Source: Methanobacteriota archaeon
GTDB lineage: Archaea; Thermoplasmatota; Thermoplasmata; Methanomassiliicoccales; UBA472
NCBI GenBank assembly: GCA_021372335.1
Contig: JAJFUR010000078.1
Location: forward strand, 1 to 36,039
Reading direction: 5' to 3'
Length of the DNA: 36,039 nt
Made by a program: the position numbers and the translations under genes. The notes under the pieces are model-generated. The model was not told the origin of the DNA. It worked only from the letters and a program-made list of their open reading frames with translations, and searched no databases. Shown here piece by piece: positions 4,696 to 6,381 of the stretch. Each line of letters begins with the position of its first letter. The stretch's first letter is position 1.

Positions 4696-4711
4696 AGGGC
4701 CTAAGACAACC

Positions 4712-4719
4712 CTTAAATA
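4712..4719 (+). promoter_or_regulatory. TATA box for the ilv leader and operon
   Basis: CTTAAATA matches the archaeal box A pattern YTTAWAWA at every position. The expected transcription start, about 26 nt downstream, falls at 4741-4744, right at the ATG of the 19-residue micro-ORF. The ilvN start is some 350 nt further on, so the operon would carry a long 5' leader. Confidence 0.65.
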
Positions 4720-4743
4720 CGGTAGCAGAAATACAAAATCTCC

Positions 4744-4803
4744 ATGCGCGCTGCGGCCCTCCCCGGTGTTATTGTTCAGGTCCTGCGTGCATTGGGCGTC
4801 TGA
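4744..4803 (+). CDS. Putative leaderless leader peptide rich in branched-chain residues
   Basis: This 19-codon ORF encodes MRAAALPGVIVQVLRALGV followed by TGA. Eight of its 19 residues are Val, Ile or Leu. The central GTT ATT GTT codons end in T in a genome that strongly prefers G/C at third positions. Its ATG coincides with the predicted transcription start from the TATA box at 4712, so it would be translated as a leaderless ORF. It lies about 290 nt upstream of ilvN and ilvE, the genes for branched-chain amino acid synthesis, as expected for a regulatory leader peptide. Its existence and role are inferred from position and composition; a chance short ORF cannot be excluded. Confidence 0.45.
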   Translation: MRAAALPGVIVQVLRALGV

Positions 4804-4831
4804 AAGGGAGGCCAATGGCCTGTCCGTCCAT

Positions 4832-5077
4832 ATGGTGGGTATGTTAATGGTGCATAGCGCGTTGCTCGGGCTGTTGGTGCTAGGTGTGGCAGAGGGTGGG
4901 GTCCGCCGTCCGAAGAGAATAGAGGGAAGCGATAGCCATCAGCTTCCCTGGCTGTCCACGCCCAAGTACCCCTGCGGTCCGGACAACGGGCGCGCCGACG
5001 ACGGGTACTATCAACCGATCAAGAAAGAGCACAGCATGCGGAACTACGAGATACCGATAAAGTGCAAGAGGAAGTGA
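4832..5077 (+). CDS. Leu/Val-rich leader ORF or small membrane protein upstream of ilvN
   Basis: An 81-codon ORF. Its first 20 residues, MVGMLMVHSALLGLLVLGVA, contain six Leu and four Val. The six Leu codons use five synonyms including TTA and CTA, which look rare in neighbouring genes. The rest is polar and ends in a basic KCKRK tail. ATGs at 4832, 4841 and 4847 are all possible starts; the one at 4847 overlaps the TAA of a ten-codon ORF (4815-4847) preceded by GGGAGG. The stop lies 14 nt before the ilvN ATG, close enough for translational coupling. The coding sequence contains the two competing hairpins at 4924-4956. I do not recognise a family. It may be a leader peptide, a small membrane protein, or non-coding leader RNA. 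Confidence 0.35.
   Translation: MVGMLMVHSALLGLLVLGVAEGGVRRPKRIEGSDSHQLPWLSTPKYPCGPDNGRADDGYYQPIKKEHSMRNYEIPIKCKRK
4924..4956 (+). promoter_or_regulatory. Two mutually exclusive hairpins in the ilv leader
   Basis: Stem A pairs GGGAAGC (4924-4930) with GCTTCCC (4942-4948), seven perfect base pairs. Stem B pairs GATAGCCA (4931-4938) with TGGCTGTC (4949-4956), eight pairs with one G-U. The arms interleave with zero-length connecting loops, too short for a pseudoknot, so only one stem can form at a time. No oligo-T tract follows, so neither is a classical terminator. Confidence 0.5.
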
Positions 5078-5091
5078 GGAACGGGATCGAG

Positions 5092-5454
5092 ATGGAGGTC
5101 ATATCGATGGTCGTGAACGACGAGTTCGGGGTCATGCAGAGGATCATGGGCGAGTTCACCCGCCGCAAGATAAACGTGGACACCATCGTTGTTGGGAAGT
5201 GCGAGCTGCCTGGCAAGTCCCGCGTGGTCCTGACCGTCTCCGACCGCACGCAGGCGGAGTGGGCGGCGGACAGCCTGCAACGGCTGCACGACGTCCTGCA
5301 CGTGGAGCTTGTGGACGAGAGCCACCAGGAGGCGTATGCGCTGGTGGGCAACGGCGCCGGTAAGGCCCGGCTGATCGGCTCCATCGAGGAGGTGGAGAAG
5401 ATGCTCCGTGCCACCAATCCGGACCGCTTCATCAGGGCTGTGAACGCCATCTGA
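5092..5454 (+). CDS. ilvN: Acetolactate synthase small-subunit-like ACT-domain protein
   Basis: A 120-residue protein. Residues about 1-75 form an ACT domain typical of the regulatory subunit of acetohydroxyacid synthase, with VVNDEFGVMQRIMGEFTRRKINVDTIVVG followed by a beta-strand and helix repeat. This domain binds Val, Leu or Ile and controls the catalytic subunit, which is not in this window. The C-terminal 45 residues do not look like the usual second domain, so this is a short variant. The ATG at 5092 is preferred to an upstream GTG at 5062 because the ACT domain begins there and GAGG lies 12 nt upstream. ilvE follows after nine bases, so the two form an operon behind the leader. Confidence 0.8.
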   Translation: MEVISMVVNDEFGVMQRIMGEFTRRKINVDTIVVGKCELPGKSRVVLTVSDRTQAEWAADSLQRLHDVLHVELVDESHQEAYALVGNGAGKARLIGSIEEVEKMLRATNPDRFIRAVNAI

Positions 5455-5463
5455 GGTGCGGCC

Positions 5464-6381
5464 ATGAAGGGCAAGGTCTGGATGGACGGGCGCATGGTGG
5501 ACTTCGAGGACGCGAAGGTGCACGTGCTGGCCCACGGGCTTCACTATGGGACCGGGGTGTTCGAGGGGATCCGTGTCTACCACACCCCGAAGGGGAGGAA
5601 CATCTTCCGTCTGCGGGACCACATGGTTCGCTTCCTGAACTCCGCCAAGGTATTGCAGATGGACGTCCCGTATTCATTGGACGAGCTGTGCGAGGCCTGC
5701 CGGGAGGTGGTCCGCTCCGCCGGGCCAGAAGGGGACTACTTGAGGCCGTTGGCCTTCTATGGGGTGCATCCCGAGTGGAAGATCGGACTGAACCCAAGCG
5801 GACTAGGCACCAACGTGAGCATCATGTGCACCCACATGGGCGTCTACATGGGAGAGGACCAGGTGGAGCAGGGGGCGGCCATCATCACATCCTCTTGGGA
5901 GAAGTACTCTAACCGCGCCGCCGCCCTCAACGCCAAGGTGTGCGGGCACTACGTCAATTCAGTGATAGCCAAGCTTGAGGCGATCCAGCGAGGCTGCGAC
6001 GAGGCGCTCCTGCTCAACGGGAACGGCTCGGTCGCCGAGGGGACGGGGGAGAACGTGTTCATGGTCAAGAACGGAAGGCTGTACACCCCCCCGGTGTCCG
6101 CCGGCATCCTCGAGGGCATCACCCGTGACTGCGTCATGACCATCGCCCAGGATATTGGCATCGAGGTGACGGAGAAGGATCTGACCCGCTCCGAACTCTT
6201 CATGGCGGACGAGGTGTTCCTGACCGGCACCGCGGCGGAGATCTCCCCGGTCCGCTCCATCGACGACCGGATCATCGCAAACGGGGCGACAGGGCCGATG
6301 ACCCAGCGGCTGGGGGAGGCGTTCCACAGGGCGGCCATGGGGGAGGACCCCAGGTACAAGGATTGGTCCGACCTGGTGTAG
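5464..6381 (+). CDS. ilvE: Branched-chain amino acid aminotransferase
   Basis: A 305-residue fold-type IV PLP enzyme that interconverts Val, Leu and Ile with their 2-oxoacids, using glutamate/2-oxoglutarate. Visible features are the N-terminal HGLHYGTGVFEGIR segment (about 24-37), the PLP-binding lysine K158 in NAKVCGHYVNS, EGTGENVF (192-199) for phosphate binding, and GTAAEISPV near 256. The length is normal for the family. GAGGTG lies a few bases before the ATG. It is co-transcribed with ilvN. D-amino acid transaminase and aminodeoxychorismate lyase share the fold, but the LRPLAFYG and GLNPSG stretches and the ilvN context favour IlvE. It ends in TAG. Confidence 0.95.
   Translation: MKGKVWMDGRMVDFEDAKVHVLAHGLHYGTGVFEGIRVYHTPKGRNIFRLRDHMVRFLNSAKVLQMDVPYSLDELCEACREVVRSAGPEGDYLRPLAFYGVHPEWKIGLNPSGLGTNVSIMCTHMGVYMGEDQVEQGAAIITSSWEKYSNRAAALNAKVCGHYVNSVIAKLEAIQRGCDEALLLNGNGSVAEGTGENVFMVKNGRLYTPPVSAGILEGITRDCVMTIAQDIGIEVTEKDLTRSELFMADEVFLTGTAAEISPVRSIDDRIIANGATGPMTQRLGEAFHRAAMGEDPRYKDWSDLV

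Follow-up and report, generated by a model that had tools for sequence, protein, structure and literature searches.

The question raised by the ilvN-ilvE locus of this Methanomassiliicoccaceae archaeon (UBA472 group) is whether an archaeal operon for branched-chain amino acids can be governed by a ribosome translating a short leader peptide. In bacteria, attenuation by the translating ribosome is textbook knowledge, and ribosome-mediated transcription attenuators are known from the ilv, leu, trp, and his operons (ilvB, ilvGMEDA, and leu in Escherichia coli). No archaeal case was found in the open-access literature, most subscription journals lying outside that search. In the window (the whole stretch of DNA analyzed, 36,039 nucleotides), ilvN is preceded by a 348-nt leader, which, judging from comparison with related genomes, is probably best explained as a ribosome-mediated attenuator responding to branched-chain amino acids. 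The features of the locus are as follows.

4705 to 4719, + strand: promoter, GACAAcc (BRE-like) plus TTAAATA box; read from the sequence, with GACAA...TTAAATA kept across the genus
4744 to 4803, + strand: leaderless leader-peptide ORF, MRAAALPGVIVQVLRALGV followed by a stop codon; an ORF rich in Ile, Leu, and Val (ILV) lies here in 20 of 20 family ilvN loci
4768 to 4776, + strand: rare control codons GTT ATT GTT; from codon usage of the window genes against that of the genus ilvN leaders
4780 to 4782, 4783 to 4785, and 4792 to 4794, + strand: other ILV codons of the leader, GTC, CTG, and TTG, respectively
4798 to 4800, + strand: last sense codon of the leader, GTC, an ILV codon
4744 to 4792, + strand: predicted helix P1 within the leader ORF, 4744 to 4751 pairing with 4785 to 4792; from the predicted fold, pairing exceeding that of shuffles in all three leader sets
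4806 to 4825, + strand: hairpin P2, 2 nt past the leader stop; same place in 34 of 34 ilvN and ilvB loci, with compensatory pair changes (ilvB)
4847 to 5077, + strand: orphan small protein of 76 amino acids, start codon uncertain, not a leader peptide; from alignment, in 15 family genomes
5092 to 5454, + strand: ilvN, acetolactate synthase regulatory subunit (Pfam ACT_AHAS_ss, 5.7e-15)
5464 to 6381, + strand: ilvE, branched-chain aminotransferase (Pfam Aminotran_4, 9e-51; gene name by synteny with ilvN)

The first-pass annotation had described a perfect box A, a leader of about 350 nt, and a 19-codon ORF whose first codon coincides with the expected transcription start, and these elements are borne out: CTTAAATA is present at positions 4712 to 4719, the leader length holds when counted from the predicted start to the ilvN ATG at 5092, ATG 4744 is placed 24 nt past TTAAATA, and 8 of the 19 residues are Ile, Leu, or Val, with GTT ATT GTT in the place given for it. 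It had also held that absence of the ORF and its codon bias from close relatives would tell against a regulatory role. The ORF, its start position, and its ILV richness were instead found at all 20 loci, drawn from seven genera and covering all family genomes in which the region upstream of ilvN is available. The ORFs run to 19 to 22 codons (for example MGALSICTDIVLVQRVLGI, MSSPAAWGIVLSGAVSLQVLVI, MRSTAACKIIVLLVSERYVVI, and MLSVAQTPVLIVVVEQLVLGI, each closed by a stop), differ in length by whole codons, and in one case start with GTG. The distance from box to leader start is 24 nt in most ilvN and ilvB leaders and 22 to 26 nt in nearly all others. ILV residues make up a fraction of 0.44 of the ilvN leaders in frame 0, against 0.19 and 0.17 in the other frames; the final residue is ILV in 19 of the 20 loci (95%), and the third residue from the stop is ILV in 100%.

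A second Leu/Val-rich ORF, previously suggested to belong to the leader system, is real as an ORF and loses that role, being the N terminus of a conserved 76-amino-acid protein (W[LN]STPKYP..DNGRDDEGYY.PIKK). This protein has no Pfam or NCBIfam match and is encoded once per genome in 15 family genomes, invariably beside ilvN; it is present in genera g1, g2, g3, and g7 and absent from g4 to g6, and variable columns in its core number 3, 1, and 11 at the first, second, and third codon positions. Two competing hairpins had been proposed without coordinates. The evident stems, at 4924 to 4948 and 4966 to 5008, do not overlap, lie inside the 76-amino-acid coding region, and are broken in several congeners, and we rejected them as regulatory structure; alignment of the relatives thus upheld the micro-ORF and its ILV codons and failed to uphold the stems. 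The conserved hairpin right after the leader stop, at 4806 to 4825, had been missed. The likeness to the bacterial order of leader peptide, RNA structure, and branched-chain biosynthesis genes survives in its core, which recurs at ilvB and is modified at leuA, and is lost for the second ORF and the named stems. The whole-leader fold of the window is not unusual (z of −0.73 against shuffles), no Rfam covariance model matches the window region even at an E value of 5, and 15 related loci have no match to a T-box, riboswitch, or known leader at the Rfam gathering score.

The ilvB-ilvC genes occupy a separate genomic locus (G000:C39) with a leaderless Val/Ile/Leu leader of their own, which was found in 14 of 14 and then in four more readable family loci, 18 of 18 in all. 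It begins with GTG, 24 nt past the box in most genomes (examples, with the start codon written M and a stop at the end, are MSNVRTSVPVVLLGLGVVVVI, MSRTNTGERTSLLLPSLTAVVVL, and MRTHITCSGRLDVLVGTVIVVLG). Counting back from the stop, positions 2 to 4 of the peptide hold ILV residues in 14 of 14 loci, while the codons used there vary among GTC, GTT, ATC, ATT, CTC, and TTG. Taken over the ilvN and ilvB leaders, the ILV fraction is 0.44 to 0.47 in frame against 0.14 to 0.19 in the other frames. At leuA (best match, TIGR02090), all 19 loci carry a Leu-rich leader in which a CTTTTG-type run of rare Leu codons is invariant, the three leuA leaders of g6 reading TTGATTTTG. The leuA peptides of the window's genus hold two Leu codons only, which makes that subset weaker. 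The leuA leader is not leaderless; it starts about 45 nt past the box, often behind a GAGG-type Shine-Dalgarno site, and its ribosome-binding site and start codon pair with sequence past the leader stop in a helix that beats most shuffles in most loci and shows pairing-preserving changes (GAGG/CCTC versus GGGG/CCCT). The amino acids match the pathway, a Val/Ile/Leu mix at ilv and Leu at leuA. As a side observation, two ilvB-like genes contain in-frame stops, one TGA and one TAG (G012:C24:4818-6419 and G021:C9:1887-3503); the TAG might signify pyrrolysine or a pseudogene.

Since RNAalifold on MAFFT alignments put the ilvB P2 arms one column out of register, the hairpins were dissected locus by locus. 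P2 begins 0 to 3 nt past the leader stop in 34 of 34 ilvN and ilvB loci, and in the ilvB set three adjacent stem positions each occur as several pair types (A-U/C-G/G-U, A-U/C-G/G-C, and C-G/A-U/G-C). The 40 nt past the stop have mean z scores against shuffles of −2.96 (ilvB) and −1.95 (ilvN); in the window itself, P2 is weak (z of −0.75, P of 0.2), and the support for P2 is comparative. A U-tract after P2 is missing in 33 of the 34 loci, the exception being L017 with TTTTT, so that P2 is not a recognizable archaeal intrinsic terminator. In helix P1, the 5′ end of the leader ORF pairs with a stretch at or before the terminal codons. In each of the three leader sets, its summed pairing is above all 100 family means obtained from shuffles, an effect inflated by the relatedness of the sequences; P1 is significant in few single loci, and the pairing register of the window differs from that of its congeners. 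P1 and P2 do not overlap, and the alignment folds revealed no alternative helix, of the mutually exclusive antiterminator kind, common to all loci. The footprint of a ribosome held at the final ILV codons is large enough that it would lie over both the 3′ arm of P1 and the beginning of P2.

Comparison thus gives good support to both the leader peptide and its hairpin: the conserved ORF, its codon content, its start position, the hairpin, and the link to branched-chain amino acid genes are all shown by the related genomes. From these we infer where transcription starts, that the leader is translated, that the ribosome stalls, which way the switch works, and what its last step is. Transcription would begin at ATG 4744 or within 1 to 2 nt of it, and a ribosome would translate the 19-codon leader directly behind RNA polymerase. 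When charged tRNA-Val, -Ile, or -Leu is scarce, the ribosome would slow at the rare GTT, ATT, and TTG codons as well as at the ILV codons that precede the stop, covering the 3′ arm of P1 and the beginning of P2, so that neither forms and ilvN-ilvE are expressed. When charged tRNA is plentiful, the ribosome would finish and depart, P1 and P2 would form, and downstream expression would drop.

For this last step, we favor a reduction in transcription elongation by factor-assisted termination, for example through FttA, to which archaeal polarity has been attributed (PMC12548453), over translational control, because the distance between P2 and ilvN is very variable and P2 covers no ribosome-binding site. 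The translational alternative, in which a ribosome on the leader changes local RNA folding and so decides whether the next ORF (the 76-amino-acid protein, ilvN, or ilvB) has its ribosome-binding site exposed, appears unlikely to us. Inspection of the sequences shows that, within the window's genus, nucleotides around the start of the small protein can pair with those immediately past P2, and the leuA helix covers the leader's own Shine-Dalgarno site and start and ends near the leuA Shine-Dalgarno site, both of which would suit such control. Opening energies computed at ilvB argue the other way: with the leader and the 5′ arm of P2 masked, the ilvB start becomes no more accessible and is mostly unchanged or less open, and sequestration of the ribosome-binding site was rejected as a common mechanism on that account. 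The leader stop lies 145 to 346 nt from ilvN across the loci, and L011 has no intervening ORF of at least 20 codons ending near ilvN. Termination-reinitiation is likewise improbable over these distances, since in Haloferax such coupling weakens once the gap exceeds about 30 nt (PMC12548453).

Attenuation by codon-by-codon reading of tRNA charging has also to be weighed against an arrest peptide, in which a specific nascent sequence would sense a metabolite. We regard this as rather improbable. The N-terminal half of the leader peptides is poorly conserved, and the C-terminal half is almost invariant within the window's genus (TDIVLVQRVLGI), as an arrest peptide would have it; related motifs (VSLQVLVI and VSVQVLVV) recur between families as well. 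The exception within the genus is the window itself, whose peptide, MRAAALPGVIVQVLRALGV, is the most divergent of its genus and breaks the shared sequence. Among operons and lineages the sequences diverge widely, whereas ILV content and position persist, and the leuA leaders switch to Leu. Codon choice points in the same direction. An attenuator needs rare codons at its control positions, and rare synonymous codons are overused here: GTT supplies 6% of Val, ATT 5% of Ile, and TTG 7% of Leu codons in the 24 genes of the window that served as reference, against 33%, 75%, and 34%, respectively, in the ilvN leaders of the window's genus and 31%, 100% (of 4), and 52% in its ilvB leaders. That these codons merely reflect the relaxed composition of a noncoding stretch is opposed by the conservation of frame and ILV class.

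Ordinary small hydrophobic proteins or translated upstream ORFs without amino acid sensing, with P2 serving as an mRNA stability element, would be a very improbable account of the leaders, even though small proteins and upstream ORFs have been reported in archaeal (Haloferax) 5′ regions (PMC4983044). Among the operons tested, leaders stand only at those for branched-chain amino acids, with matching amino acid content; in the same genomes, trpE, hisG, and ilvD have short 5′ regions with no such ORF, and a second leuA-like paralogue has no obvious leader. The poorly conserved N-terminal half, the rare codons, and the fixed position of P2 at the stop codon also speak against this account. We observed separately that trpE (L164 to L178) starts close to its promoter and that palindrome-like repeats, similar to TGTATAATAATACAATAATG, are conserved around its box, which suggests a repressor site rather than an attenuator.

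Finally, while coincidence could account for a single short ORF in a single GC-rich genome, a chance ORF in an unrelated 5′ untranslated region is already refuted by the conservation at 20 of 20 loci, the second and third operons, and the shuffle and pattern controls. When both strands of the window were scanned for box A followed at 22 to 26 nt by a short ILV-rich ORF, this ORF was the only hit, against 0 in 60 shuffles. Genome wide, the pattern of box, start, and ILV-stop occurs just twice in the window's genome, once as the ilvN leader and once as the ilvB leader; 22 whole family genomes together give 30 matches versus 2 for the reversed pattern, and 18 of the 30 are ilvN or ilvB leaders, as read by eye from the matched sequences.

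The archaeal leaders share with bacterial attenuators a short leader ORF with product-cognate codons, an adjoining stem, biosynthetic genes downstream, and separate leaders for ilv and leu. They differ in their archaeal host, in the leaderless start for ilv, and in a hairpin placed at the stop codon with no U-tract, and the classical antiterminator/terminator pair is not recognized in them. A leaderless leader peptide for branched-chain amino acids has an experimental precedent in a bacterium: in the ilvBNC leader of Corynebacterium glutamicum, MTIIRLVVVTARRLP, the start codon lies one nucleotide from the transcription start, and the peptide has three Val codons in a row (PMC11857589). Mutational evidence underlies the three-hairpin switch with a terminator hairpin in that operon (PMC11857589), whereas the archaeal leaders are known from sequence comparison. 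Actinobacterial ilvB leader ORFs overlap terminator hairpins followed by poly-U (PMC1262725). There, as in the archaeal leaders, the ILV run lies against or inside the hairpin, so that a ribosome stalled there could keep the hairpin itself from forming; the archaeal hairpins, however, have no poly-U. The finding that changing the candidate codons of Streptomyces coelicolor ilvB was without effect (PMC1262725) counsels caution for the archaeal case. The mycobacterial cys leader peptides, for which factor-dependent termination has been proposed (PMC1262725), resemble the archaeal leaders in their conserved control-codon run near the stop and in having no recognizable intrinsic terminator. Unlike the archaeal leaders, they have no conserved hairpin past the stop, and Rho is the bacterial factor where FttA is the archaeal candidate.

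Beyond the family, the search covered the phylum of the host. A leader with a post-stop hairpin was found upstream of ilvB or ilvBN in family f5 (L211, MNAALIFVNSSLLVSVQVLVV and stop; L222, L041, and L182), in f3 (L223), in f6 (L184, L185, and L212), and in two loci titled Candidatus Methanomethylophilaceae (L046 and L048). By sequence comparison, at least three further families of Methanomassiliicoccales, an order of methane-producing archaea, thus have related leaders upstream of ilvB. Four more Thermoplasmata loci (L049 to L052) have an ORF rich in branched-chain residues with a less clear hairpin, and the leaders probably extend beyond the order to a wider set of Thermoplasmata. In most of the sampled f2 genomes (L187 to L201 and L214 to L221), ilvB lies near its promoter and has no leader, possibly through loss, as L046 and L048 have one.

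The ilvN leader of genera g4 to g6 aligns with the ilvBN leader of f3 and f5 from the promoter through P2 towards the next start (L011, L013, L016, L018, and L022 compared with L041, L211, L222, and L223), and a short ORF in L013 begins like ilvB (VRGS versus MRGS). This homology implies that ilvB was lost between leader and ilvN, and under the simplest reading of the alignment, an ilvBN operon lost its ilvB in this family while the leader was retained, now in front of ilvN. More tentatively, we propose that archaea have a ribosome-mediated amino acid attenuation of their own, old in Thermoplasmata and acting on three loci for branched-chain amino acids, in which leaderless peptides may gate a stop-codon hairpin that is not an intrinsic terminator, probably through factor-dependent termination or decay. 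If so, transcription and translation would be coupled tightly enough in archaea for tRNA charging to be read, the leaders would offer a natural reporter of that coupling, and both leaderless translation and factor-dependent termination in archaea would gain a physiological role open to direct test. It would then be worth asking whether archaea and bacteria share the mechanism or came to it separately.

A different conserved element stands upstream of ilvB in family f9 of the same class (L204 to L210). It consists of a mini-ORF ending in RFI, SFI, or RLI before its stop codon (for example, MKSVSRFI), followed by the nearly invariant CATCTGTGGCG.
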